From a virus, in the IMG/VR virus record IMGVR_UViG_3300046007_008688, positions 1 to 21,306 of that record: a DNA stretch of 21,306 bases, one strand, 5' to 3'. Each line of letters starts with the position of its first letter. Within the stretch, counting starts at the first letter, position 1. Positions 1-20,151 of the stretch are shown piece after piece. Position numbers and translations under genes: made by a program. Under the pieces are notes generated by a model. It was not told the DNA's origin. It ran no database searches and saw nothing but the letters and a program-made list of their open reading frames with translations.

Positions 1-3000
1 ACTAATTTCTTTGGGGGTACAACACCTGAAAAATTTATTAATACACAAATACCGAAGTATGAAGCTTCGTATATCGCAAAAGCTTATTTACAACAATCTA
101 ATCAGTTGTTTGTAACTAGAATTTTGGGATTGTCAGGATATGACGCAGGACCATCTTGGTCATTTAGAACAATCGCAAACGTAGATAAAACTACTGTACA
201 ATTTGATTGTTCAGGTAGTACATATGATTTTGGATTATGTGAAGATGTTTGTACGGGTTATACAGAATATTCTTATACAATACCTTTTACGGGATGTAAT
301 AATGATATAAATACTGTAGTATTTGGTACAGTATCAGGAGATAACTCAATCATCACAGATAAATTTAATCAAAGTTATCAAGAATTTAATGGTTCTACAT
401 CAACAATAGTTTCAAACTTCCAACAACAAATTTTTGATATTATTGTTTCTTCAACAACTCTTTCAACATCAGCAACCTCAGCGTATTATTACGGTACTAT
501 TTTAGGTGATGATTATGATGCGTTATCGTTAATATATACTAAAGAAACAAACGTATTCGATGTAAGTAATGTTGATGCACATTTAGCAGATTACACAGCA
601 CCGGAAAATGACCCTTGGTATTATGCGTTATTTGATAATGATAATGGTAATTACACAGGTAGTTCATATTATTCTATTATTCAAAATTTAGGACAAAGTA
701 CAACATCATCAAATTGTAAATCTTTCACATCTTTTAATGTTAGTGGTGTGACAGGTAGTATAAACTATACTAATAACACAATTAGTGTTACATTACCATA
801 TTCAACTTTTTCAGCCGCGAGTTTAACAAATGTTGTTGCAGGATTTGAGGCTTGTTGTACAGGAGTAACGATTAGTACTGTTCCACAAGTTAGTGGAGTT
901 ACTTCAAATAATTTCACAACACCGGTTAGTTACCTTTTAACACCAAATGATGGTTCAACACCTGCAACTTGGGTAGTAACTGTGACTATACAAAATCCTT
1001 GTAATCCATTAACATCAGGTAATACAGGTTCTCAAAACATAGGTACAATCATAACTTGTTATACAGGTAGTGTTACGGGTAAAATATATGTTTATACAGG
1101 AATTTCATATACTGATTATGATGATTTAGTTATTGCAACACTTCGTTCAAGAGGTATTGCGACTTATGGAACAGGTAGTGATGGACCGGCATATGAAGTA
1201 ACTGGTTTAACTGATGTAGTTATGAATTGTACCGGTAATTACTCAACAATATCTAAAAATCCATATTCAACATTTGGACTTAATGTGACTGATTATGATG
1301 GTAATACATTCTTCTTTGAAACATCATTTAGTGAATCAGATTCAAAATATCTTCCAAAGGTATTTGGTTCTTCAAACTTTGCAAAACCAAGAACCACTGT
1401 TCCATTATTTGTTGAAGAGAGATTCCAAACATTATTAAACTACGGTTATAATAAAGGTTATATTAGAGGTATAAATTGTGATTTATTATCTTTACCAAGA
1501 GCAAAAGGAAATGACTTATCCTCAATTGCGTTTTATTTAGAAAGATACCAAACACCTGTTTCACCTTGGGTTGTTTCAGAATTAAGAGGTAGTAAAGTTT
1601 ATAACTTATTCAGATTCGCAACAATTGCCGATGGTAACGCAGCTAACACTGAAATTAAAATTTCAATTGCTAATATGTCATTCGGTAATTTAACGTTTGA
1701 TATTTTGGTTAGAGATTTCTTTGATACCGATAATAATCCTGTAGTTATTGAGAAATTTACTAACTGTAGTATGGACCCTAACGATAATTCGTTTGTGGCT
1801 AAAAAGATTGGAACAACTGATGGAGAATATGAGTTAAATTCTAAATACATAATGGTTGAAATGAATGAAGACGCACCCGTTGATTCATTACCTTGTGGTT
1901 TCCAAGGATTTAATTTTAGAAATTACGCAACTTCTAGACCACCATTCCCAATTTTTAAAACTAAATATGATTTCCCTGGTGAAGTTGTATTTGACCCCCC
2001 ATTTGGATTAAGTTCAGGTTCTAACTTGGCAATCCAAAGTCCGGGAGATAATGTTCGTAGAACTTACTTAGGGATTTCGACAGGATATGGTGTAGGATAT
2101 GACCCTGATTTCTTCCAATATAAAGGAAAACAAAATCCTTTAAATATTTGTAATACTACTGAAGGTGCTGATTGGACATATAAAACAAGAGGTTTCCATA
2201 TGGATGTAAACGCATCATCGATTGTTTATCCGGGAACATCAAATCCTGAATTCTATGTTGGTGACGCTCCATTTATATCAGACCCGTCTGATGAAACAAG
2301 TCCTTACTACAGAATATACTCACGTAAATTCACATTATTAGTACAAGGTGGTTTTGATGGTTGGGATATCTATAGAGAATCAAGAACTAATACCGATACA
2401 TTTAAATTAGGTCAAAGAGGTTACTTAAATGGTGCTTGTCCGGATTTAAGATATCCAACAGCTACAGGTTTTGGAGCGTTTAAACAAATTACTGTTGGTA
2501 ACAATAGTGTTGATTACGCGAACTCTGATTACTACGCATATTTATTAGGTCAACAAACATTCTCAAATCCTGAATCGGTTAATATTAACTTATTTGTTAC
2601 TCCAGGGATTGATTATACTAATAACTCTGATTTAGTTGAAGATGCAATTGAAATGATTGAGTTCAACAGAGCTGACTCATTATATATTTGTACAACAGCT
2701 GATAGTGATTTATTTATTCCAAGTCCTGACCCAAGTGCGTTAATTTATCCACAAGAGGCAGTAAATGAACTAGAGAATAGAGGTATTGATTCTAACTACA
2801 CCGCAACTTACTACCCTTGGGTATTAACTAGAGATAGTGTAAATAACACTCAAATCTATTTACCACCAACGGCTGAGGTTGTAAGAAACTTGGCATTAAC
2901 TGATAACATTGCGTTCCCTTGGTTCGCAGCGGCAGGTTACACAAGAGGTATCGTAAATGCTATCAAAGCGAGAAAGAAACTTACTCAAGAAGATAGAGAC

Positions 3001-3411
3001 ACCCTTTACCAAGGACGTATCAACCCAATTGCCACTTTCTCTGATGTTGGTACCGTAATTTGGGGTAATAAAACTCTACAAATTGCTCAATCAGCACTTG
3101 ATAGAATAAATGTTAGAAGATTATTACTTCAAGCTCGTAAATTGATTTCGGCAGTATCTGTAAGATTATTGTTTGAACAAAACGACCAAAAAGTAAGACA
3201 AGATTTCTTAGATGCGGTTAATCCTATCTTAGATGCTATCAGAAGAGACAGAGGTTTATATGACTTCCGTGTAACAGTTTCGTCAGACACCGCTGATTTA
3301 GACAGAAATCAAATGACAGGTAAGATTTATATCAAACCAACCAAATCGTTAGAATTTATAGACATTACATTCTATATTACTCCAACAGGAGCTTCTTTCG
3401 AGAATATATAA
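1..3411 (+). CDS. Tail sheath protein, 5' end missing, with Ig-like insertion
   Basis: This frame is open from the first base, so the gene starts before the window; a TTG at 106 is only an internal codon. The visible 1136 residues already far exceed T4 gp18 (about 660). The visible N-terminal stretch (QLFVTRILGLSGYDAGPSW, about residues 36-54) and the C-terminus (ITFYITPTGASFENI) match the pattern I recall for T4-like sheath proteins: core domain at the start, and the conserved strand that locks neighbouring subunits at the end. Residues about 245-335 look like an inserted immunoglobulin-like beta-sandwich of the Bacteroidota DUF5018 type, ending PATWVVTVTI. The middle is rich in Thr, Ser, Asn and Tyr. 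The sheath polymerises around the tube and contracts to drive it through the envelope. A hairpin follows the stop codon. Identification is firm; the role of the insertion is inferred. Confidence 0.88.
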   Translation, partial: TNFFGGTTPEKFINTQIPKYEASYIAKAYLQQSNQLFVTRILGLSGYDAGPSWSFRTIANVDKTTVQFDCSGSTYDFGLCEDVCTGYTEYSYTIPFTGCNNDINTVVFGTVSGDNSIITDKFNQSYQEFNGSTSTIVSNFQQQIFDIIVSSTTLSTSATSAYYYGTILGDDYDALSLIYTKETNVFDVSNVDAHLADYTAPENDPWYYALFDNDNGNYTGSSYYSIIQNLGQSTTSSNCKSFTSFNVSGVTGSINYTNNTISVTLPYSTFSAASLTNVVAGFEACCTGVTISTVPQVSGVTSNNFTTPVSYLLTPNDGSTPATWVVTVTIQNPCNPLTSGNTGSQNIGTIITCYTGSVTGKIYVYTGISYTDYDDLVIATLRSRGIATYGTGSDGPAYEVTGLTDVVMNCTGNYSTISKNPYSTFGLNVTDYDGNTFFFETSFSESDSKYLPKVFGSSNFAKPRTTVPLFVEERFQTLLNYGYNKGYIRGINCDLLSLPRAKGNDLSSIAFYLERYQTPVSPWVVSELRGSKVYNLFRFATIADGNAANTEIKISIANMSFGNLTFDILVRDFFDTDNNPVVIEKFTNCSMDPNDNSFVAKKIGTTDGEYELNSKYIMVEMNEDAPVDSLPCGFQGFNFRNYATSRPPFPIFKTKYDFPGEVVFDPPFGLSSGSNLAIQSPGDNVRRTYLGISTGYGVGYDPDFFQYKGKQNPLNICNTTEGADWTYKTRGFHMDVNASSIVYPGTSNPEFYVGDAPFISDPSDETSPYYRIYSRKFTLLVQGGFDGWDIYRESRTNTDTFKLGQRGYLNGACPDLRYPTATGFGAFKQITVGNNSVDYANSDYYAYLLGQQTFSNPESVNINLFVTPGIDYTNNSDLVEDAIEMIEFNRADSLYICTTADSDLFIPSPDPSALIYPQEAVNELENRGIDSNYTATYYPWVLTRDSVNNTQIYLPPTAEVVRNLALTDNIAFPWFAAAGYTRGIVNAIKARKKLTQEDRDTLYQGRINPIATFSDVGTVIWGNKTLQIAQSALDRINVRRLLLQARKLISAVSVRLLFEQNDQKVRQDFLDAVNPILDAIRRDRGLYDFRVTVSSDTADLDRNQMTGKIYIKPTKSLEFIDITFYITPTGASFENI

Positions 3412-3467: not shown

Positions 3468-4286
3468 ATGTTAAAAAATAAAATAGTTGAAGGAATTGAT
3501 GAGTTTGGTGCTCCGGATGAAAAATATTATGCGTTTGATTGGGACGATAATATTGTATCAATGCCAACTAAAATATTGTTAAAAGACGAAGAAGGGGATA
3601 CTGTAGGAATGTCAACTGAAGATTTTGCAACTTACAGAGAAGAGATTGGTAAAGAACCATTTGAATTTGATGGACATACAATTGTTGGATTTGCTGAAGA
3701 TGCTTATAAATGGTTTGGTGTTAAAGGTGATAAACAATTTATTGTCGATGCTATGACGGCTAAACCGGCAGCAGCTTGGCCTGATTTTGTAGAGGCAATT
3801 AATAATGGTTCAATCTTAGCTATTGTAACTGCAAGAGGACACACACCATCAGTATTAAAAGAAGGTGTTTATAACTATATTGTTTCAAATACGAATGGTA
3901 TAGATTCTAATGAATTGGTTAGAAATTTAGAAAAATATCGTGATTTAGCGGATGAAGAAAATGTATCTAAAAGAGAAATGATTCGTGAATATTTGGATTT
4001 ATGTAAATTTTATCCAGTAACTTACGGACAAGGGTCGGCCGCTAAAGTAGAACCATTAAAAAAAATGGCAGTAAGAGAGTTTGTTAATTATGTTAGGGAA
4101 ATGTCTGATTATATTCAGAAAAAAGCTTTCTTAAAAAATAAGATAAGTAATTATTTTGTACCAAAAGTAGGTTTTTCGGATGACGATTTAAAAAACGCGG
4201 AAACTATAAAAAAAGATTTTGAGAACGACCCAGATAATATAGTTACAGTATATTCAACAGCAGGAGGAATTAAAAAAGAATATTAA
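3468..4286 (+). CDS. HAD-superfamily hydrolase-like protein in the tail cassette
   Basis: This 272-aa protein carries the main haloacid dehalogenase (HAD) motifs in order. Motif I is FDWDDN (residues 23-28), with D24 as likely nucleophile and D26 as acid/base. Motif II is VTARG (120-124). K193 or K198-199 could supply the motif III lysine, and GFSDDD (235-240) fits the metal-binding motif IV. This predicts a Mg-dependent phosphatase or phosphotransferase fold; the substrate cannot be read from sequence. The segment between motifs I and II is long enough for a cap domain. It lies between sheath and tube genes, where T4 has no enzyme, so it may modify a virion or assembly partner, or simply be expressed late. 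The ATG start has an A/T-rich leader and no Shine-Dalgarno sequence. HAD fold is well supported; function is unknown. Confidence 0.75.
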   Translation: MLKNKIVEGIDEFGAPDEKYYAFDWDDNIVSMPTKILLKDEEGDTVGMSTEDFATYREEIGKEPFEFDGHTIVGFAEDAYKWFGVKGDKQFIVDAMTAKPAAAWPDFVEAINNGSILAIVTARGHTPSVLKEGVYNYIVSNTNGIDSNELVRNLEKYRDLADEENVSKREMIREYLDLCKFYPVTYGQGSAAKVEPLKKMAVREFVNYVREMSDYIQKKAFLKNKISNYFVPKVGFSDDDLKNAETIKKDFENDPDNIVTVYSTAGGIKKEY

Positions 4287-7974: not shown

Positions 7975-10900
7975 ATGTCAAATAGTACATTATCGTTTGC
8001 ATCCTCATCTTCGTTTAGAGATGTTTTATTAGCAAGAAACTTAACACCTTATACTGTTACGGGGGTTTATACACCACCGTTATCGAATATTAATAGTGAG
8101 ATTACTTTAAGTAATTTTAATGTTATTGATTCACCCGACGAGTTAATTTCTGAAAATCCTTTTGCTGACCTATTATACCCTTTAAACGAATATGGACCAG
8201 ATGGTGGTTTTGATGATGAAATAACATTTAATGGTCCCCCAGTTCCGGTCAATTCAAATCAGGGTGAATATAGTCCTAATGATACTGTATTAGATATTGT
8301 AAATGAATTCTTCATTGACGCGGCATATATTGATAATTACTATGGTCCGGTTGGTGGTTTTAATGATATGTATGGTGTTACAACTCAAATATTGGGACAA
8401 CCTATACATCAACCATATTTACCACTTCCATTTGTTCCCTCATCATATTCACCATACTCAATTTTATTATCAACAAATCCTGAGGGTAGTGATGGTTCAT
8501 TATCTCAGGATTCTTATTTGGCTAGATTGGGTGCTCAAACATTAAATGAGTTATTTCAAGATAGAATTGCTAGACAAATTTTTATAAATACTGTTGGTCA
8601 AGTAAATTTAGAATCATTATCAGACCCTTTTGAGGCGAGTTTAATTATATCGGGACAAGAACCATTAATATATAGAAATTGGAAAATTACTTCACCTGAA
8701 GACCCAATTACTGCTGCGGGTGATTTATTAACAAGATTAGGTGGTGCGTATTGGCCTGTTTCACCAATTCCTGGTGATTATTTTAGTGATAATACAAGAA
8801 ACGGACAAACACAACAAACTTCAAATGCCTTAAATGTTGTTAATCAACTTACTGGTGGATTTTTAGGACCAATATTAAATATTAGTAGAAACCCATCTGA
8901 AATATTTTTAGCGAACACAGGAAACGGTCAAAGGTCGGTATTATTTAGAAATTTAGAATACAATAGATACCAACCAAGTTATAGAAAAGATTTTGGTGGA
9001 TTATTGGGAATAGGTCAGGCGATTGTTAGTTTAATAAATCCTTCTAACGGGACTTTGGTTGGGGGTTATTATGTTGGTAGTAGAAATGCTGAACCTTCAA
9101 CAATAACATCACCACCTAATCAAATTCCTGTTAATGCTTTTGGACAACAAGAACAATCACCGGTTTATGGTCCTTCTGAAATGGGTATTCTATTTGAGGG
9201 GAATCAAGACACTCTTAATTTTGGTTTAGCGGCTAAACCACTAAGTGATGGTGGAGGTATTGACGGTCAATTTGTTTGGACTTCACCAAAATATAAACCA
9301 AATGCTGGATTTAGTGCAACACCGGGTGGTGGTTCAGGTTCGGCTGACCCTGAATTTAATTTAATTAGTAGTAATTACACTCGTGATGAATCTACAAATA
9401 TTACATTCAAAGAAACGTCAATTCTTGACCAAACTCAAAGATTGGTTAATTCGGCGGATAACGTACAAGGGGTTAATAGATTAAAACACGTTGGTAATGC
9501 TATTAACCAAGTCAGTAAAGTATTCCACGATGGATATAAAGAAATGACTAAAGGTTCTCAGGTTGTGTCTTATAAAGACCAAACAACCGGAGCTGAGGCT
9601 GGTATTGAATATTGTCGAGTATTCACCAAAGACACCCCTTATTATACTTATTCCGACTTACAAAAAACAGATGGTATAACCACATCCGGAAGAAGATTTA
9701 GTAGTTCAGTATTAGATAATACTTTTAATTTAAACATTTCTCCAACAAGAAATCCGGGGTCAACAAATATAGTTGCAAACGGACCTAATGGAATGGGGGG
9801 TTATGCTAAAAAATATATGTTCTCAATTGAGAATTTGGCTTGGAGAACATCAACAAAACAAGGTTATACTTATGATGATTTACCTGTTTGTGAAAAAGGA
9901 CCAAACGGAGGTAGAGTTATGTGGTTCCCACCTTATGATTTAAAATTTAATGATTCAAGTACTGCAAATTGGTCTGAAACATCATTTTTAGGTAGACCTG
10001 AACCAATATATACGTATAAAGATACAAAAAGAACAGGTTCATTAACTTGGAAAATAATTGTTGACCATCCTTCGGTAATTAACACAATTGTTGATAAACA
10101 ATTAAAAGGTGTTAATAAAGAAAGGATGAATTCTATATTGGATTCGTTTTTTGCGGGGTGTGTTAAATATGATATTTATGAATTGGCTAAAAAATTTAAT
10201 ACGGTTCCTACAAGAGATTTATATACGTATCAAGAGATTTTAACTAATCCTAAAGTTAGTACTGAGGATATTAAAGCGGTTAAGGATAGTATACCGACAC
10301 AAAATAGTACCAATGCGAGTAGTGCTGCGGATAGTGTTCCACAAACAAATACCGAACCATCAGTTGCTAACTTAAAAAATTATGAAAATTTTGGATTTTA
10401 TTTTGAAAATAATGTACCGGGACCTACTAATAGAACCGCAACAACACCTGATTCAACATATAATGCTAATTACGATAATTACATTTTTAATATGAATCAA
10501 GACCAATATGTTGCAATATCAAGTAAAACATTTGTGGCAAATAGTCCAAATCTTAATGTTAAACAATTCTTTGAAAATGTTGTAATTGATAATTTTGATT
10601 ATATAAACAAAGGATTTATTGAAGACGCTTTTAAAATATTAAGTGAAAAAACAGGCACAATAAAAATAACTTTAACCGCTGGAGCATCTGCACCGGCAAA
10701 TAAATCGTATAACAAAGCGTTATCACAAAGAAGAGGAAATTCTATTATTGAATATTTTAAAACAACTAAATTAGGTAAATTTATAACTGAAGATAATACT
10801 TTAACATTTACAAGTGTAAATGCAATAGGTGAAGATGGGGTTGTCAACCCAACCAATTCAATGGGATATGCTGGGGCTTCGGTTACTTGTACTGACAATA

Positions 10901-12924
10901 TTGTTGATAAAAATGGTAAAGTTACTCACGATTCTCAGTGGTATTCTGTTGCCGCTATGGCTTGTAGAAGGGTTATAATGAGTAAAATTGATGTAACGGC
11001 ATTACCTTTTGATAAACCAGTGGTTCCTGAAGAAAAAACTGAGGTAATTGTAAATACTCCGGCAGAAAAGAAACCGGAACCAAAGAAACCGGAACCAATT
11101 GTTACTATTGAAAAAAAATTAAAAGACGGTATTAGTAAACTAATATTAAGAAATTTATTCTCAGAATGTGATTATTTTGATGTTATTAAGGAAAATGTAC
11201 CGATGTTATATGACTCTATTCAGGAAAAACTTAAATATTTTAACCCTGCGTTTCACTCTATGACACCGGAAGGTTTAAACGCTCGTTTAACGTTTTTAAA
11301 TCAGTGTGTTAGACCTGGTGAAACTATACCTGTAATTGGTTCAGATGGAAAACCAAGACAAAATGATGCTCAAAATACGTCGTTCGGTGCTCCACCGGTT
11401 TTAGTTTTAAGAATTGGTGATTTTTATAATACCAAGATTATACCTAAAAACTTAGCTGTTACATATGAACCGTTACTTTTAGACTTAAATCCTGAAGGAA
11501 TTGGTATACAACCTATGTTAGCGAATATTACATTATCATTTGATTTAATTGGTGGTATGGGTCTTAAACAACCTGTTGAACAATTACAAAATGCGTTATC
11601 GTTTAATTATTATGCTAATACTGAAATATATGATGAAAGGTCTACTTGGACTGATGATAGTTGGAAGGCTTTAGATAAACAATATTTCCAAGATATTTTA
11701 GATGCTCAACCTACGGTAACAAATGTTGATAATCAACAAACTAATGCTGCGGGTGACACTATTGGTCAGATACAAACTACAGTTAATTCAGAAAGTGGCC
11801 AAACCGGAGACATTACATATACGAAAATTATGGATAGTTTATTGGATGTAACCAAAGAATATTATACAAATATTATAAATCAGGCGGAAACTATGACTAA
11901 ATCATATAATGATGGGATTTGGCAATTAACAACTAAAGAATTACTATATACTAATGGTAAATTTAATTTAAATGTCTTTAATACTCCACCATCTGAACAA
12001 GTTACCATTTTTGGAAAATCTGTTTTTGAAAATAAAATTGATGAGTTATTTACAAAAACAATTGAGGATATTGATAATGATACTAATTTTATAATAGTAG
12101 GTTTACTTGGTGATAATTTTAATGAAGCGACGATTAGGGATGTTAAATCAAATTTGAAAAAATATATAACTGATTATAAAGCTGATTTTAGTTTGGGGGT
12201 TAATTCTATTGTTAGTAATGTTGTTCAACAACAAGTTGATATGGTTCAAGTATTTAGAAAAATTAATTATGTGGCAACATTTTCTGATGGTGTAATAATT
12301 GATTCTAAACCTAAAGTATATAATATATCGGCAACAACTGAAATTAGTGAATTAAGTGTCCCTGAACCAATAGATACTTATGATGAACTTTGGAGAGATT
12401 ATCAAACAGTGGGTGATAATATAAATAGATTTTATGAATTTTTAATAACAAATGAAATAATTTATGAAAATTATGATGAACCGGGTGATTTTAGTCCGAC
12501 ATCTTCTGTTTTTGAAATAGATGATTTATCGGGTAAAAGATTTTTTATGATAATGGCTCAAATTTTTAATGATAAAGATAAGTTTAATCAGTTTAATGAT
12601 ATTGTTATCACTAATACTATGGATAATTCCACATCAGGTTTAAAAAGAAAATATAATAAAATTGTTGATAATTTCAGAGATAAAGTTAAAGAAGAATTAG
12701 ATGCGGAAGAAAAATCTTATAAAGCGGTTAAAAAAGATGAAGTGTATTTAGATTATCTTGCGGTTGAAAACCTTTATAAAAAAGGTAAAACACGTAAATT
12801 TACATATACAACAGTACCTAATTCATCAACAAATGAACAACAGACAGCGGATTTATTATTATTATATCAAGGTAATAATAATGGTGATAAAACAATTTGG
12901 ACAGATAAAACCCAATTTAATTAA
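7975..12924 (+). CDS. Large baseplate structural protein with OmpA-like domain
   Basis: This 1649-aa protein looks like a fusion of several tail parts. Residues 1-400 are rich in Pro, Gly, Asn and Ser with no clear domain. Around 649-700 a block (WFPPYDLKF, then TANW and LGRPEPIYTYKDTKRTGSL) resembles tube-like domains of baseplate/tube-initiator proteins. Residues about 840-1000 fit an OmpA-C peptidoglycan-binding domain: amphipathic helix, TIKITLTAGASAPAN, then NKALSQRRGNSIIEYF near 912-928. A Lys-Pro hinge (KKPEPKKPEP, 1032-1041) follows. Around 1140-1220 a second tube-like block ends LSFDLIGGMGL. The C-terminal third is acidic and helical. It may take the place of T4 gp48/gp54, the platform on which the tube starts. 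Two nt separate it from the gp53-like gene, so they are co-transcribed. The OmpA call is good; the T4 equivalence is inferred. Confidence 0.68.
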   Translation: MSNSTLSFASSSSFRDVLLARNLTPYTVTGVYTPPLSNINSEITLSNFNVIDSPDELISENPFADLLYPLNEYGPDGGFDDEITFNGPPVPVNSNQGEYSPNDTVLDIVNEFFIDAAYIDNYYGPVGGFNDMYGVTTQILGQPIHQPYLPLPFVPSSYSPYSILLSTNPEGSDGSLSQDSYLARLGAQTLNELFQDRIARQIFINTVGQVNLESLSDPFEASLIISGQEPLIYRNWKITSPEDPITAAGDLLTRLGGAYWPVSPIPGDYFSDNTRNGQTQQTSNALNVVNQLTGGFLGPILNISRNPSEIFLANTGNGQRSVLFRNLEYNRYQPSYRKDFGGLLGIGQAIVSLINPSNGTLVGGYYVGSRNAEPSTITSPPNQIPVNAFGQQEQSPVYGPSEMGILFEGNQDTLNFGLAAKPLSDGGGIDGQFVWTSPKYKPNAGFSATPGGGSGSADPEFNLISSNYTRDESTNITFKETSILDQTQRLVNSADNVQGVNRLKHVGNAINQVSKVFHDGYKEMTKGSQVVSYKDQTTGAEAGIEYCRVFTKDTPYYTYSDLQKTDGITTSGRRFSSSVLDNTFNLNISPTRNPGSTNIVANGPNGMGGYAKKYMFSIENLAWRTSTKQGYTYDDLPVCEKGPNGGRVMWFPPYDLKFNDSSTANWSETSFLGRPEPIYTYKDTKRTGSLTWKIIVDHPSVINTIVDKQLKGVNKERMNSILDSFFAGCVKYDIYELAKKFNTVPTRDLYTYQEILTNPKVSTEDIKAVKDSIPTQNSTNASSAADSVPQTNTEPSVANLKNYENFGFYFENNVPGPTNRTATTPDSTYNANYDNYIFNMNQDQYVAISSKTFVANSPNLNVKQFFENVVIDNFDYINKGFIEDAFKILSEKTGTIKITLTAGASAPANKSYNKALSQRRGNSIIEYFKTTKLGKFITEDNTLTFTSVNAIGEDGVVNPTNSMGYAGASVTCTDNIVDKNGKVTHDSQWYSVAAMACRRVIMSKIDVTALPFDKPVVPEEKTEVIVNTPAEKKPEPKKPEPIVTIEKKLKDGISKLILRNLFSECDYFDVIKENVPMLYDSIQEKLKYFNPAFHSMTPEGLNARLTFLNQCVRPGETIPVIGSDGKPRQNDAQNTSFGAPPVLVLRIGDFYNTKIIPKNLAVTYEPLLLDLNPEGIGIQPMLANITLSFDLIGGMGLKQPVEQLQNALSFNYYANTEIYDERSTWTDDSWKALDKQYFQDILDAQPTVTNVDNQQTNAAGDTIGQIQTTVNSESGQTGDITYTKIMDSLLDVTKEYYTNIINQAETMTKSYNDGIWQLTTKELLYTNGKFNLNVFNTPPSEQVTIFGKSVFENKIDELFTKTIEDIDNDTNFIIVGLLGDNFNEATIRDVKSNLKKYITDYKADFSLGVNSIVSNVVQQQVDMVQVFRKINYVATFSDGVIIDSKPKVYNISATTEISELSVPEPIDTYDELWRDYQTVGDNINRFYEFLITNEIIYENYDEPGDFSPTSSVFEIDDLSGKRFFMIMAQIFNDKDKFNQFNDIVITNTMDNSTSGLKRKYNKIVDNFRDKVKEELDAEEKSYKAVKKDEVYLDYLAVENLYKKGKTRKFTYTTVPNSSTNEQQTADLLLLYQGNNNGDKTIWTDKTQFN
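11068..11097 (+). repeat. Two tandem 15-nt repeats encoding a KKPEP hinge
   Basis: AAGAAACCGGAACCA occurs twice in a row, in frame, giving KKPEPKKPEP. It lies just after the OmpA-like domain and probably forms a stiff, basic linker. Such in-frame repeats can vary in copy number between related phages. Confidence 0.8.
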
Positions 12925-12926
12925 AA

Positions 12927-13253
12927 ATGAATACTAAACAAAATTATAATAGATACAACGATTTTTTGTTTAATGGTGAGCAAACTATTGTTCCATATAT
13001 TACTATTCCTAGTAAATCTACGGACAAAAGGTATATTTACAAAATTGGTCAATCAAGGTTGGATAAAATATCTCAACAATATTATGGTACACCAACATTT
13101 GGGTGGTTAATTATGGCATCAAATCCTAACTTTGGTGGTGAAGAATGGAATATACCGGATGCAAGTATTTTAACGATACCATTTCCGTTAGTAACATCTT
13201 TACAAGATTATAAATCAGAATTAGACAATCATTTCTTTTATTATGGTAGATAA
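12927..13253 (+). CDS. Baseplate wedge protein, T4 gp53-like with LysM fold
   Basis: This 108-aa protein has a central LysM-like segment: YIYKIGQSRLDKISQQYYG (about residues 36-54), then TPTFGWLIMASNPNFGGEEWNIPDASILTIP. The RLDKIS-x-x-YYG-x-P-x-x-x-WLI-x-x-x-N pattern is the signature I associate with T4 gp53, the wedge subunit that joins wedges around the hub. The T4 protein is about 196 aa, so this is a short version that keeps mainly the LysM-like core. It starts 2 nt after the previous stop, and its last 11 nt overlap the start of the hub gene, which suggests translational coupling of the three baseplate genes. LysM can bind peptidoglycan, but in this family it probably serves protein contacts. 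Confidence 0.8.
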   Translation: MNTKQNYNRYNDFLFNGEQTIVPYITIPSKSTDKRYIYKIGQSRLDKISQQYYGTPTFGWLIMASNPNFGGEEWNIPDASILTIPFPLVTSLQDYKSELDNHFFYYGR

Positions 13254-16200
13254 ATCTGAAAATATTTTAGTAGAATTTGACTACAACAACATAACAATTA
13301 TTGACCCAAACAAAGTTATTGATTCTAATAATATTGTTAGTGAAAGATATGTCAGTCAAGAAAATTTGGTGATGTATGCTAATCTTGAATGTAGTGTGTT
13401 ACCAAGAACTAAATTAGCTGTTGGGGTTTCAAATGATAGTGCAATAAAAACAATATCAATTGCAAAAATTAACTTTTTAAAACCTGGTGATAAACAATAT
13501 TTGGATAATTCTTATACTGATGATATTACGGGTAAAGATAGTATTAAATCTGAAATTGTTAATTTACCAAATAAAAGTTCTCCGTCTAAACCTAATGTCA
13601 GTGACGATTACTATATTAAACATTCTCCAAATTCAGGTAAACAAACCGGAAGTGTGGATAATGGTTTATTAGGTATTACATCAATTAACATTAGACAAGG
13701 GTTAGATTTTTTACCAACGGTTGATATTAAATTGACTGATGTGAAAGGTCGTGCTTTATTTGAAGGTGGAAATAATTCACCTTACGCCGCGTTTTTTAAT
13801 TTACCATATCCATTATTTCATTTAACAATTAAAGGTTATTATGGTAAAGCGGTTAGATTAGCGTTGATGTTACAAAATTTTACAACAACTTATAATGCTG
13901 ATACAGGTAATTTTGTGGTGGATTTAAAATTTTACACTTACAAATATACGGTTTTAAGTGAAATTACTATGGGTGCTTTAATGGCAACTCCTCATATGTA
14001 TCAATCAAGATTTACAATTAGTTCAAAAAGTGGAGGACCTAGTCAAACAACCAAAACTAATAATATTGTTGTTGAAAGAGGTTATCAAAAAATAGTTGAA
14101 ATGTATAGTGAATATAAGTCTAAAGGATTAATTCCAAATGATTTCCCGGAGATAACCATTATGCAAATGAAAGATAGAATTGAAAATTTTATCACAAATA
14201 TTTTAGAGTCATTCACTAAACAAAATTTAGACCCTTTAACTGATTTAGACACATATAGTAATAATTTAAGAGATTATCAGAAAGATGTGTTTTATACATT
14301 ACAAACTTCTTGGTTTAATAAATATATGGATGTTGTTAATTACTATATTTTGAATACCGGGCAAAAAGTTTATACTTTTAAAAAAGGTACAAGTTTAGAA
14401 ATTAAAAGTAATGCAATTTCTGATTTGAAAGGTATACTTGATAAGTATAATATTTTATTAAACGGTAATAAAACTTGTGGTGAAAAGGGTAGTTATGAGA
14501 TTAATGGTAAAAAAACGGAATGTAAAATACCAAATCCTGTTAAATATGAAATTTTTCCAAAAGATGTTGATTACAACGATATAAATCTTGAAGAGACATA
14601 TAAAGCACAAAGAAAAAATAGTCAACCAACACAAGAAGATTTAACTAAATTTAGAGCTGAATTAACAAAAGATAATATATTAAATAATATAACCATAACA
14701 CTTAAAGGTGGTGGTAAACAAGCGAGCTCACAATTTTTTGTATTTGAAGGTAAAAATAGTTTTATTGATTTAACTGATAAAATGAATAAGGACCTTCAAA
14801 CAAAACGAGAAACTATTCAAGATGAATTAACCAAAGCTTTGGCGGAATTATTGGAGAGTAAGGATAATGGTATTGGTTTTATCCCAAATATTAGAAATGT
14901 TCTTGCTGTTGTATTTGCTAATGGTGAGGCTTTTTTAAGGTTGATGGATGATGTTCATACCAAAGCTTGGGCTCAGAGAGATGAGAAAATTAGAAAAAAC
15001 GCAATATTTGATAGTACAGTTTCTAATGCAAATCCTGATAATCAAACTTCAGGTAGTAATTCTACCGAACCAATTTACCCTTGGCCTCAAGTAATTAAGG
15101 CAACGACTGGTGAGAATGGGCAAGAAAAATATGAAGTAAGATACCCGGGTGATAATGATATTATTGCTCAAACAAAAGGTTATTTATATGATGTATGGCC
15201 TGAAATTGAATTTGTTGAAGAGTTTATTAGAGGTTTAACTCAAAAAACACCTCCACCACAACCAGTAACAGATAATTCAAATTCAGTTACCGAACCAAAC
15301 AGAGTTTCTTTAGGGGCTATTGAGTTTCCGGTTAGTAATGAAGTTTTTGCTAATAAAGTGGATGTTAATTACATTTATGAAATTTATGAAAGAATTTTAT
15401 TAACATCTCATTATTCAAAATTAAATAGAAGTGAAAACAATACGACTGATTTAGATAAGGTATCAAATATTATCGCTGATGGTGAGAGTATTAATATAAA
15501 GAATAGTGTATCAAATTCTGACGCATCTTTAATTAAAATTATTAGAGATTATAATCTTACGGCAAGTAGTTTTGAAGGTGTTTTAAAACATATTTCAAAT
15601 GAAGGTGCGGGACAAAGTTGGCAGAATTACATTAGAGGTATATTTAACACAGGTTATATTAAAAATGAAGTTGAAAATGCTGATTTTGAATTGTTTAGTC
15701 AAACTAAACTTGATAGTAGTGATTCTCAACCATTAGTTTCCCTGAATAAAGAACAAGATATTTCAACATACGTATCTACTTCAACATCGTCTAATAAATA
15801 TGATTTTTCAGATATATTCCCATTTACAAATAAAAAATGGGTTCAGGGTAATCTGTCAAATGGTATTAGTACAGATGAGAAATTAGCGTTTAATACAACT
15901 AAAACCTTGGTGTTTAATAGTAATAAAAAGGTTATTAGTAATTTTACTGATTCTCAATCTCAAGATGTTAAGAAACCTATAACTAATTTTGTTTATAAAA
16001 ATATAAAAACACCTGTTATTATAAATGAAGATTTTAGAAACTTTTATGCGACTAGAACGTATGAAAATCAATTACCAACAGAGGGTGATATTAAATACCT
16101 AAACTATTCAGGTTTGGTGAGTAGTTACCAAACAACATCAATATTAAACACGCCTTATTTTATTAATGCTATTCAAGAGGGTGTTGAAAAAATGATAAAT

Positions 16201-19200
16201 AAAGAACAGTATCCATTTGTTAGTTCTGCATATTTGTTTATTAATAGCTTACCATTATCAACATTAAGAGAAAAATTTAAATCTTATACCGGTTCAGACG
16301 CACAATATTCTGATGAAAGTTTAGATTATATATTTGCGTCATTAAATAAATTTGGTGCATTACATAAAATGCCTTATGCTTGGGTATTAAAAATAGGTTC
16401 TATTTGGAATCGTTATAAAACTTATATTGAAACCGGTAATGATATATTATCCAATTGTTGGAAGGATTTTGATTATGTTGAAAACTTTGACCCTGTAACT
16501 AATGATAAAACCAAAACATATAACTTAATTCTTCCTGGTCAAACTGGTACAACATCAATAGTGTTAGAACAATTTACTACTACTGTGACAAGTAATGGAA
16601 CTACTTCTGCAACAACAATTAATACCGGATTTTATCCTAAATTGATAAATGATTTTAGTATTTTTTATCAAGGTTTTACAATTTTTACGGGATATACTAA
16701 TACAGATATTCAAAATGGGTTTAATGAAGGTTTGGTGTTAAACTACGTTCCTGAAGCAGTTATTAATAATGTAAGAGGATTAATTATTAAAAAAGTAATA
16801 CCTTGGTCTGTTTCGGTAACTGCTGATTATGGACAATATCAGTTTATAATGCCATCGAATGGAAGTGTTGTGAGTCAAATAAAATCAGAATGTCTAAATA
16901 TTTTTTCAGATGCTACTTTTGCATTAACAGGTTTTAATATTGTACCTAATCCTTGTGACTTTTCAGGAAATAGTGCGATGTATAACGGTTCGGTTAGATT
17001 ATTTTGGACGGCACCAAATTATGGGTATTTTGATAATTCTAAAGTGGTAAAACCTTTTCCAACAAAATATTTAAAAGAAGTTTGGTCGGGACAATCCATT
17101 CAAGAAAATTTCTCAATCAATGGGGAAAATAGTCAATATACTGATATTAGTGAAATGTTTTCAGTGTTTGATAAAGATACGTTAGATAAGTTTGAAAAAG
17201 AATTTTTAAATTTTAGTATATCAACGTATGATTATGTTGATGAAGATAATGGTGATAAAATTAATTCTCAAAAAACATTCAAAAATTTCCAAGAATTGAT
17301 GAGAAGTTTAATGAAAATTACAAACAATAGTGTTAATAATATGTTATCGGTTGAAGATACTCAATCAAAACAATTAACAAATATTTCAAATACAATTAGT
17401 CAATTTTTAAATTATGATATATACTTTAAAAAGGGAAATCCGTCTAATTTTGATAGAAAATTGTTTTATACGTTTTCATCTAATCGTATAATTGTTAGTC
17501 CATATACTTGGGATTATTATAATTACGTTACACCAAATTCTTTACCTAGTACCGACCCTAATTCACCTTCTTTATTTATATCTAAATTTTTAAAACCAGA
17601 TGAGTGGATAGCGTTAGAAACGTATGTTGGGTTTTCCAATATACCGGAATTAGTTTATACTGATAATGGGTCTTACATTACAGATTTCTTTATTGATTGT
17701 AATGTTGCGTTTGACGTTGAAAACATTGAAAACTTACATCCTATTATTAAAATTTATGCAACCCAAAAATTAAAAGATAACACTTTAAATTATGATAAGT
17801 TTGTTAAATTGATGAATGAGTATTTAAATACGTTGGATAGTTTTAATGATAAAATTTTGAATAGTGCAATGATTAAAATTAGAGCACTATTACCTACTGT
17901 TAGTGAGACACCTAAACCACCAAAAGAATCTGTTTTAGAAAGTACTCAAAGTAAATTAGAGTTATGGGAATCATTTAAGGCGACAAATGATAAATGGATT
18001 GCCGGTAATGATTTTAAAACTAAAACTTTATTTGAAGATGTTTTATTATTGGATAGGGCGAGTAGAAATATTGGTGAAAAAGTGTTAGTTGATGTTATAA
18101 AACTTAAAAATACTTTAACAAATATTAATGTTGCTGCAAGTATGTTAACATATGTTAATGATATTTTGGTAACAAATAATTTTGTTGTAATGAATATACC
18201 TTCATATGTTAATTTTTATAATGTACAAGACGCGGTTAAAAATCCAAAACCAAAACCTGATGGTACTTTAGAATTCGCTAACATAATGTTCGGTACCTTT
18301 ATGAATGTTGATTATAGAAATTCATCCGCAAAGATGGTTTGTTTTTATGCGGGCAAACCAAGTCAACACGTAGCAATCAATAATGTGGATTATAGATTTA
18401 AAGATGACGCTTTTGATTTAAGACGAGCGAGTGATAACCCATTAAATGAAAACCAAATTGGTAAAAATGATTGGGATAAATCAAATAAAGTTGTTGGGTT
18501 TAATGTTGAATTTGGTACCCAAAATCAATCAATATTCAAAGGATTTAATGTCTCACAAAACCCGGGATTACCAACAGCGGAATCATTACAGGTTATTAAT
18601 CAAATGGCTAATCAATCAGGAAATAGAGGTGGTTCAACTCAAAATATGTCGTTGTATAATTTATACAAAAATAGAAGTTATGCTTGTCAGGTAAATATGA
18701 TGGGTAATGCTATGATACAACCAACTATGTATTTTAATTTAAGACACGTCCCAATGTTTAGTGGTCCATATATGATACAAAAGGTTAATCACAGTATAAC
18801 ACCCGGTAATTTTGAAACCACTTTTGAAGGTATCAGACAACCAACAGCATCATTACCATTAGTGGAAAATTATATACAATCGTTAAAAACATCGTTATTA
18901 CAATCTATAATTGAAACAAATAATCAAAGAAGGGCTGAAGACGCTAAGGCAAATTTAACGGCTTCTACTAAGACTAATGTAATAGGTCAATCCGAACAAA
19001 AAGCCGCTGATAATACACAAAAAGAGGGTACTAAACCTAAAAATACTCAAGAGTGTCCACCGGTTGAAACAACCAATGATAAATATGGTAAATTTACACC
19101 TGAAACACCAACACCAACTACGGCAACATATAATAAAGTTATTGAATTAATATCATCAAAAACTAAAGGTAAACCTTTAAATCTTGCTTATAGTGTATTT

Positions 19201-20151
19201 GTTAAAATGTTTTTGAATAGTAATGATGGGACGGTGTTAAAAACACAATCAAATAATTATAGTGGAACTGATTTAATGAGTGATTGGGGTGCGTCGGTTG
19301 ATGAATATTTCACTAAAAAATATTATTGTGGAGGACTTTTAAATACTAAACCGTATGTTATGTTTGATAGTTTAGATAAAAATATTGATTTTTTAATTAG
19401 TCGATTTTTAATCACATCACTAACTATTCAAAATTTAAATAAAGAAGAAGTTACTAAATTTATAATTTTATATTCTGACGCTACAAAATCAGATGAAAAT
19501 GTTTATACAAGTATGAATCCTACTGACCTCAGTAATATAGAAACCAAAGTTGATGAAGCAATAAAATTGTATAATTCGACTACCGGTAATTTTACAAAAA
19601 CATCACCACCAGTCAAACCAACAAACAGTAATAATGATTCCGGTCTTTTTGAAGAATCAAAAGTTTTTGGTACTTATTTTTTACAAAATCTCAAAACAAA
19701 TACAAATGGTTCTATAAGTGGTGACTTTTTAGTAATTAATCAAGGTGAAACATTATCTCAAAGTTATCCGGCAAAACTCTATGTTAGAAGTGTGATGAGT
19801 AATATTGAATTAGCAACTTTTACAGTTGGGACAAACAATAGAGGGACATTCACAACTCAACCGGACACTGTTAATTCATTAAAAGCAATTCAGAATAGAC
19901 AAACATTCGAAATTGTTTTTATAATTAAGGTGGATGCTTTTCCAAATATCACTTACGATGAATCGCTAGTTCTTTTACCTATAGGTTGTCCTGACTTAGG
20001 ATTCAAAACTAACGATTTAATTGAACCGGATTTTTGGAAAGAAATTGAGCAAAATATTTGTTGTGAGTGTTATAGTAAACCATATACAGGAACACAAGTT
20101 ACTTGGAAAGACCAAAACTGTTCAAAAAATGGAACAACACCTTGTGATTAA
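13243..20151 (+). CDS. Giant baseplate hub protein (2302 aa)
   Basis: The gene starts at an ATG inside the end of the gp53-like gene. Residues about 145-250 (INIRQGLDFLPTVDIKLTD, then NLPYPLFHLTIKGYYGK) look like the N-terminal hub domain in Bacteroidota T4-like phages. Residues about 1810-1873 (ACQVNMMGNAMIQPTMYFNL, then GPYMIQKVNHSITPGNFETT) fit the closing domain of gp27 / late-control-D type hubs: cysteine strand, G-x-x-x-I-x-P, and V-x-H-x-I. Residues about 1963-2105 weakly recall a lysozyme/glucosaminidase-like domain (NNYSG, MFDSLDKNIDFLISRF), but no catalytic Glu can be assigned. The tail has five Cys between 2273 and 2301. T4 gp27 is about 390 aa, so this is several times larger and may include spike or wedge functions. 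Long middle parts match nothing I know. Confidence 0.68.
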   Translation: MVDKSENILVEFDYNNITIIDPNKVIDSNNIVSERYVSQENLVMYANLECSVLPRTKLAVGVSNDSAIKTISIAKINFLKPGDKQYLDNSYTDDITGKDSIKSEIVNLPNKSSPSKPNVSDDYYIKHSPNSGKQTGSVDNGLLGITSINIRQGLDFLPTVDIKLTDVKGRALFEGGNNSPYAAFFNLPYPLFHLTIKGYYGKAVRLALMLQNFTTTYNADTGNFVVDLKFYTYKYTVLSEITMGALMATPHMYQSRFTISSKSGGPSQTTKTNNIVVERGYQKIVEMYSEYKSKGLIPNDFPEITIMQMKDRIENFITNILESFTKQNLDPLTDLDTYSNNLRDYQKDVFYTLQTSWFNKYMDVVNYYILNTGQKVYTFKKGTSLEIKSNAISDLKGILDKYNILLNGNKTCGEKGSYEINGKKTECKIPNPVKYEIFPKDVDYNDINLEETYKAQRKNSQPTQEDLTKFRAELTKDNILNNITITLKGGGKQASSQFFVFEGKNSFIDLTDKMNKDLQTKRETIQDELTKALAELLESKDNGIGFIPNIRNVLAVVFANGEAFLRLMDDVHTKAWAQRDEKIRKNAIFDSTVSNANPDNQTSGSNSTEPIYPWPQVIKATTGENGQEKYEVRYPGDNDIIAQTKGYLYDVWPEIEFVEEFIRGLTQKTPPPQPVTDNSNSVTEPNRVSLGAIEFPVSNEVFANKVDVNYIYEIYERILLTSHYSKLNRSENNTTDLDKVSNIIADGESINIKNSVSNSDASLIKIIRDYNLTASSFEGVLKHISNEGAGQSWQNYIRGIFNTGYIKNEVENADFELFSQTKLDSSDSQPLVSLNKEQDISTYVSTSTSSNKYDFSDIFPFTNKKWVQGNLSNGISTDEKLAFNTTKTLVFNSNKKVISNFTDSQSQDVKKPITNFVYKNIKTPVIINEDFRNFYATRTYENQLPTEGDIKYLNYSGLVSSYQTTSILNTPYFINAIQEGVEKMINKEQYPFVSSAYLFINSLPLSTLREKFKSYTGSDAQYSDESLDYIFASLNKFGALHKMPYAWVLKIGSIWNRYKTYIETGNDILSNCWKDFDYVENFDPVTNDKTKTYNLILPGQTGTTSIVLEQFTTTVTSNGTTSATTINTGFYPKLINDFSIFYQGFTIFTGYTNTDIQNGFNEGLVLNYVPEAVINNVRGLIIKKVIPWSVSVTADYGQYQFIMPSNGSVVSQIKSECLNIFSDATFALTGFNIVPNPCDFSGNSAMYNGSVRLFWTAPNYGYFDNSKVVKPFPTKYLKEVWSGQSIQENFSINGENSQYTDISEMFSVFDKDTLDKFEKEFLNFSISTYDYVDEDNGDKINSQKTFKNFQELMRSLMKITNNSVNNMLSVEDTQSKQLTNISNTISQFLNYDIYFKKGNPSNFDRKLFYTFSSNRIIVSPYTWDYYNYVTPNSLPSTDPNSPSLFISKFLKPDEWIALETYVGFSNIPELVYTDNGSYITDFFIDCNVAFDVENIENLHPIIKIYATQKLKDNTLNYDKFVKLMNEYLNTLDSFNDKILNSAMIKIRALLPTVSETPKPPKESVLESTQSKLELWESFKATNDKWIAGNDFKTKTLFEDVLLLDRASRNIGEKVLVDVIKLKNTLTNINVAASMLTYVNDILVTNNFVVMNIPSYVNFYNVQDAVKNPKPKPDGTLEFANIMFGTFMNVDYRNSSAKMVCFYAGKPSQHVAINNVDYRFKDDAFDLRRASDNPLNENQIGKNDWDKSNKVVGFNVEFGTQNQSIFKGFNVSQNPGLPTAESLQVINQMANQSGNRGGSTQNMSLYNLYKNRSYACQVNMMGNAMIQPTMYFNLRHVPMFSGPYMIQKVNHSITPGNFETTFEGIRQPTASLPLVENYIQSLKTSLLQSIIETNNQRRAEDAKANLTASTKTNVIGQSEQKAADNTQKEGTKPKNTQECPPVETTNDKYGKFTPETPTPTTATYNKVIELISSKTKGKPLNLAYSVFVKMFLNSNDGTVLKTQSNNYSGTDLMSDWGASVDEYFTKKYYCGGLLNTKPYVMFDSLDKNIDFLISRFLITSLTIQNLNKEEVTKFIILYSDATKSDENVYTSMNPTDLSNIETKVDEAIKLYNSTTGNFTKTSPPVKPTNSNNDSGLFEESKVFGTYFLQNLKTNTNGSISGDFLVINQGETLSQSYPAKLYVRSVMSNIELATFTVGTNNRGTFTTQPDTVNSLKAIQNRQTFEIVFIIKVDAFPNITYDESLVLLPIGCPDLGFKTNDLIEPDFWKEIEQNICCECYSKPYTGTQVTWKDQNCSKNGTTPCD

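Follow-up and report, generated by a model that had tools for sequence, protein, structure and literature searches.

In bacteriophage T4 the baseplate wedge protein gp53 has a LysM fold, which is wall-binding and is thought to have been reused as a part of the baseplate. For domains of the OmpA-C type, the DAP-site residues of TagL are Asp486, Asn494, Leu497 and Arg501, and its wall binding requires, as judged by mutation, Asn494, Leu497, Ser498, Arg501 and Ala502; Asp486 is absent from this mutation-tested list in the available part of the paper (PMC8253398). For the OmpA protein of A. baumannii, the available parts of PMC5974059 and PMC7901484 assign DAP binding to Asp271 and Arg286. No description of an OmpA-C-type domain in a phage baseplate was found among the titles and abstract openings listed in searches of open-licence papers.

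We analysed the whole length (21,306 bases) of the virus record IMGVR_UViG_3300046007_008688, hereafter called the window. Pfam and PHROG profile searches of its ORFs revealed a contractile-tail gene cluster, in which the sheath gene matched PF17482 above the cut-off as well as phrog_23, the tube gene matched phrog_4542 (with PF06841 below the cut-off), and a further gene gave a T4 baseplate-protein match (phrog_150, with PF12322 just below the cut-off). Judging by its position and composition, another ORF of the cluster probably encodes the tape measure. The ORF at 7975..12924 on the plus strand encodes a tail protein of 1649 aa that contains a domain of the OmpA-C type, and with the sheath, the tube, the T4 baseplate protein and a baseplate wedge as its neighbours it probably belongs to the baseplate region. 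The 1649-aa ORF itself matched no family in these searches. Directly downstream, the plus-strand ORF 12927..13253 matches phrog_7145 (baseplate wedge subunit, E=3.8e-5), and we call it gp53-like; under a strict pattern, a gp53-like motif was detected downstream of the domain gene in 40 of 63 family members. This gene order would place the 1649-aa protein itself in the baseplate.

Three other ORFs of the window deserve mention. The sheath protein (window 1-3411) comprises at least 1136 aa, its match to sheath families is confined to the last ~290 residues, and the remainder forms a very large N-terminal extension. Between the sheath and tube genes, ORF 3468-4286 carries the pattern FDWDDN...VTARGHT, which resembles that of HAD-type phosphatases; this ORF had no PHROG match at E<=0.1 and no Pfam match at E<=0.01. 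For the 2302-aa ORF at 13243-20151, after the wedge-like gene, Pfam gave no match at E<=0.05, and the sole PHROG match is of doubtful value (E 0.018).

A sequence-only reading of the window had proposed that the 1649-aa ORF contains an OmpA-like domain at 10510-10980. The profiles of relatives and the AlphaFold model confirmed a real and complete OmpA-C-type domain; the proposed coordinates, however, were too short and left the first strand outside. According to the profiles, AlphaFold and structure comparison, the domain comprises aa 805-1014 (about 10387-11016, plus strand) in the order b1-a1-b2-a2-b3-a3-b4; additional residues are inserted after b1, ahead of a1. All the elements that had been named were recovered, i.e. 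the amphipathic helix KGFIEDAFKILSEKTG, the strand IKITLTAGASAP and the helix YNKALSQRRGNSIIEYF, followed by a Lys-Pro stretch. Strand 1 (NFGFYFENNVP), which belongs to a conserved FYFxNDxP block, begins at 10387, upstream of the region first proposed, and strand 4 (ACRRVIMSKI) ends near 11016.

The relationship to OmpA emerged mainly at the level of the family. The window domain alone matched PF00691 with E=0.047 and 14.5 bits, which is sub-threshold (cut-off 27.2), and neither the whole 1649-aa protein nor its 613-aa middle part had a Pfam match. At the same time, PF00691 matched 39 of 41 non-redundant family domains, the window included, at E<=0.1 (best 3.1e-6), and the 613-aa part matched it in 23 of 41 members at E<=0.01. 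When the 41-member profile was compared with the PDB, the top matches were chains of an outer-membrane protein, Pal and PorE (E 1.2e-4 to 1.9e-4); the NCBIfam search of the family domains returned Pal, PorE, YiaD and other OmpA-type families, and hhalign against OmpA and Pal of E. coli, taken from the MG1655 record, gave a probability of 93 percent. In each of seven long phage records the single PF00691 match fell in an ORF of 1555-1694 aa, the size of this gene (7/7), and exceeded the Pfam cut-off in one of the seven (28.3 bits). In addition, 12 of the 41 domains matched phrog_7897, a family without a named function that also has matches in cellular control genomes. By profile, the domain is a member of the OmpA C-terminal family.

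The predicted structures pointed in the same direction. In the first AlphaFold model, built with 13 sequences, the mean pLDDT was 71 and OmpA-type entries made up most of the structural matches. The second model (41 sequences, 613 residues) resolved the domain at model residues 191-400 with block mean pLDDT values of 82-95, most of the flanks remaining below 60, and in it four strands alternated with three helices. Structural comparison yielded 50 rows of OmpA, Pal, MotB, TagL, PorE, YfiB and similar proteins with a top Z of 9.9; in five of these rows (8z5n, 5jir, 9ngu, 7mud and 7muc) the domain is not named in the title. Foldseek against the PDB gave no match at E<=0.001 with either model, the best one being the C-terminal domain of PorE, 6top (E 2.6e-3). 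We regard an OmpA-C fold as practically certain. The sequence-only reading was to be abandoned if the prediction differed from OmpA-C; both AlphaFold and the structure comparison returned OmpA-C.

Scans of IMG/VR uncovered a large family of relatives, of which three scans supplied the best 80 of 589, the best 80 of 578 and the best 80 of 578. The domain was present in all 229 untruncated loci among the 239 examined, which rules out an oddity of a single contig, and the records that carry the gene reach 322 kb, within the jumbo-phage size range. Among 50,697 phage records no relative was detected with the whole protein (E<=1e-3) or with the domain of locus L088 (E<=1). The first scan of GTDB species genomes matched 69 stretches, none of which was confirmed as a relative. 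When the phage motif was searched as an exact DNA pattern, GTDB species genomes gave 0 matches and IMG/VR at least 120. At all 114 of the pattern places that were re-read, the ORF bore at least one further signature of the 1649-aa protein: MWFPPY at 94, the strand-1 motif at 102, the AMACRRV-type end at 89 and the second flank at 77. The plasmid search produced one weak match to the OmpA family (E 0.3), and the viral structure library one close match, A0A6J5L6C4 from an uncultured phage.

The ligand site of the phage domains is altered in one position and otherwise largely kept. Ser905 (10687..10689, plus strand) stands where OmpA and TagL have the DAP-site Asp. Counted by position, this residue is Ser in 165 of 165 distinct domains, and an alignment made with no motif filter likewise showed Ser in all 41 members. 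Asn913-x2-Leu916-Ser917-x2-Arg920 (10711..10734, plus strand), identified by alignment and motif count, is what the phages retain of the DAP-site motif; its spacing is the same as in TagL, without gaps. The residue counts cover 239 loci (the window, L038-L115 and L230-L389), 229 of them with the motif and 10 too short, which reduce to 165 distinct domains; L002-L037 enter through the alignments only, and the IMG/VR loci found with the exact DNA pattern were left out of the Asp/Ser counts because that pattern demands Ser. With a counting pattern that requires Asn, Leu/Ile and the last Arg, leaves the Ser position free and was passed by every long-enough locus, Asn and Arg were each found in all 165 domains and Leu in 161 (Ile in 4). 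The position of TagL Ser498 is Ser in 144 and Ala in 21, and at that of Ala502 the Ala is mostly lost, being kept in 6 of 165. In the aligned members Asn-x2-Leu-Ser-x2-Arg lies on helix 2 in 41 of 41, and the 20 columns that do not vary in alignment A6 include pocket-motif positions. Three loci (L235, L236 and L280) are divergent, with the Tyr before Asn and the first Arg changed and the Ser and the last Arg kept. As regards a family-wide loss of the ligand residues, the outcome was mixed: the Arg never varies, and every relative checked has Ser in place of the Asp. Canonical meso-DAP binding appears less likely because the DAP-site Asp is Ser throughout; another acidic residue, e.g. in the ND that follows strand 1, could take over from the Asp.

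A second conserved feature of the domain is the cysteine pair Cys972 to Cys997 (10888..10965, plus strand), both columns of which are invariant (41/41). In all 154 complete domains the cysteine of MxCR has another cysteine before it. The two residues may constitute a disulfide or a metal site. Such a pair is unusual, as the protein is expected to fold in the cytoplasm.

The domain is bordered by beta-rich parts of the protein. The flank before it (GRVMWFPPY...GRPEPIYTY..., 9802..10251, plus strand), conserved in alignments A5 and A7, is possibly tube-like; Foldseek linked it weakly to CIS tube proteins, to the collar of a diffocin and to a phage baseplate. The second flank (FGAPPVLVLRIGDFY...EIYDER, 11383..11640, plus strand) was recognised by its conservation. 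Both flanks were poorly modelled by AlphaFold and gave weak Foldseek matches only, and the Pfam and PHROG searches revealed no fitting family for them. Immediately after the domain lies a variable linker rich in Pro, Lys and Glu (11017..11118, plus strand), defined by its sequence, length variation and a pLDDT below 50. Its Lys-Pro stretch EKKPEPKKPEP consists of two tandem copies of a 15-base unit, and the repeat search of the window listed no repeat family at this place. The linker length ranged from 35 to 137 residues with a median of 46 (141 of 154 complete sequences, some conserved residues before SECDY being included). The mobile Lys-Pro hinge envisaged from the sequence fits these data, the stretch after the domain having both low pLDDT and variable length. 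Since both bordering stretches have low pLDDT and the rear one varies in length, the domain can probably move.

The predicted fold, the position in the gene, the conservation and the Asp-to-Ser change are directly supported. Starting from these, we tentatively favour, by a small margin, a domesticated, linker-tethered contact module of the baseplate over a retuned wall-binding pocket. In this view, large contractile-tailed phages of one lineage acquired an OmpA-C-type domain; it became fixed in a protein of the baseplate region, between two conserved beta-rich parts, and has a flexible stretch on either side. Its usual meso-DAP binding would have been lost, because Ser replaces the Asp in all members checked and only Asn, Leu and Arg are retained, and the pocket would still bind something, because the rest of its motif is nearly invariant. 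The domain may serve as a tethered contact module whose conserved pocket, with its Arg, holds a segment of a baseplate partner, or else some other acidic ligand, ahead of contraction or while it proceeds. Its place in the virion, its inability to bind DAP, the partner it holds and when it does so are all inferred. Judged from the residue pattern, a baseplate partner seems the most likely ligand and a differently recognised wall component nearly as likely; the latter is nearly as plausible because the wall-binding residues tested by mutation in TagL are mostly kept and the Asp is not listed among them in the available part of that study.

The original suggestion that the domain may anchor the tail to peptidoglycan finds partial support: Asn, Leu and Arg are kept, but Ser in place of Asp in 165 of 165 domains weakens its canonical form, and an altered form is possible. 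Under such a reading, which remains a realistic if less probable choice, Ser stands for Asp, Arg and Asn grip a stem-peptide carboxylate, and the tail tip holds the wall during penetration. The invariant Asn and Arg (165/165) and the Leu (161/165) are among the residues that abolish TagL wall binding when mutated, according to the available part of PMC8253398, the nearest profiles are those of OmpA/Pal/PorE-type domains, and mobile linkers would suit a reaching tether; against this, the Asp that is DAP-binding in A. baumannii OmpA, as stated in the available parts of PMC5974059 and PMC7901484, is absent in every relative checked. The wider claim, that a widespread uncultivated clade of large phages carries a wall-recognition module of new specificity, in which the OmpA-C pocket with Ser for Asp clamps peptidoglycan or another envelope carboxylate during contraction, seems unlikely to us. 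It is still more improbable that the domain is a structural spacer or an assembly scaffold only, with an old pocket that binds nothing. The pocket residues may be conserved for folding alone, and the conserved strand-1 Tyr/Phe, the Cys pair and the strand-4 RRV could be read as core residues; however, the Asn and Arg located in TagL's crevice (in the available part of PMC8253398) do not vary in the phages either. Chance likeness without true OmpA kinship, for which the sub-threshold score of the window sequence (14.5 vs 27.2 bits) and the lack of a PDB Foldseek match at E<=0.001 with either model might be adduced, was rejected as scarcely credible, since the PF00691 matches of the family, the PDB profile, the structure comparison, the long records, NCBIfam and hhalign concur.

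The fold as such is known. New are its place in a tail protein, the exchange of Asp for Ser without exception, and the fact that it has become established in these phages. A domain that anchors proteins in the bacterial cell envelope has become fixed in the tail of a large group of uncultivated phages with one uniform change in the ligand pocket. This raises the question of whether the phage version still holds the wall or has been turned into a machine part, as is thought for the LysM fold of T4 gp53.

Among the known systems, the C-terminal domain of OmpA and Pal (PF00691; A. baumannii OmpA-C 3td3-3td5, Pal 4g4w) agrees with the phage domain in predicted fold, with Z 9.8-9.9 across 108-123 residues, and shares the Asn-x2-Leu-Ser-x2-Arg motif and the terminal RRV strand, whereas the phage domain differs by the change of Asp to Ser, the insertion between strand 1 and helix 1 and the place inside a tail protein. 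PorE of type IX secretion, whose C-terminal domain (6top) is the best Foldseek match, was also the sole family that NCBIfam returned for the window domain at E<=0.01 (E 6.9e-4, a score well short of the model's own cut-off), but it is a cell-envelope protein and has Asp at the position where the phages have Ser. As to the mode of working, the domain can be compared with TagL of type VI secretion (5m38, 7bba), in which an OmpA-C domain anchors a contractile machine; TagL, however, resides in the envelope complex of the firing cell and, unlike the phage domain, keeps Asp486, as given in the available part of PMC8253398. Among the viral structures of BFVD/UniProt, the 613-aa part matched A0A6J5L6C4 best (E 5.7e-18, with 36 percent identity across 408 columns); this uncharacterized protein comes from an uncultured Caudovirales phage and is probably a member of the same family. 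Finally, T4 gp53 differs from the phage domain in both fold and protein, and a gene for a wedge subunit lies directly downstream of the domain gene here.
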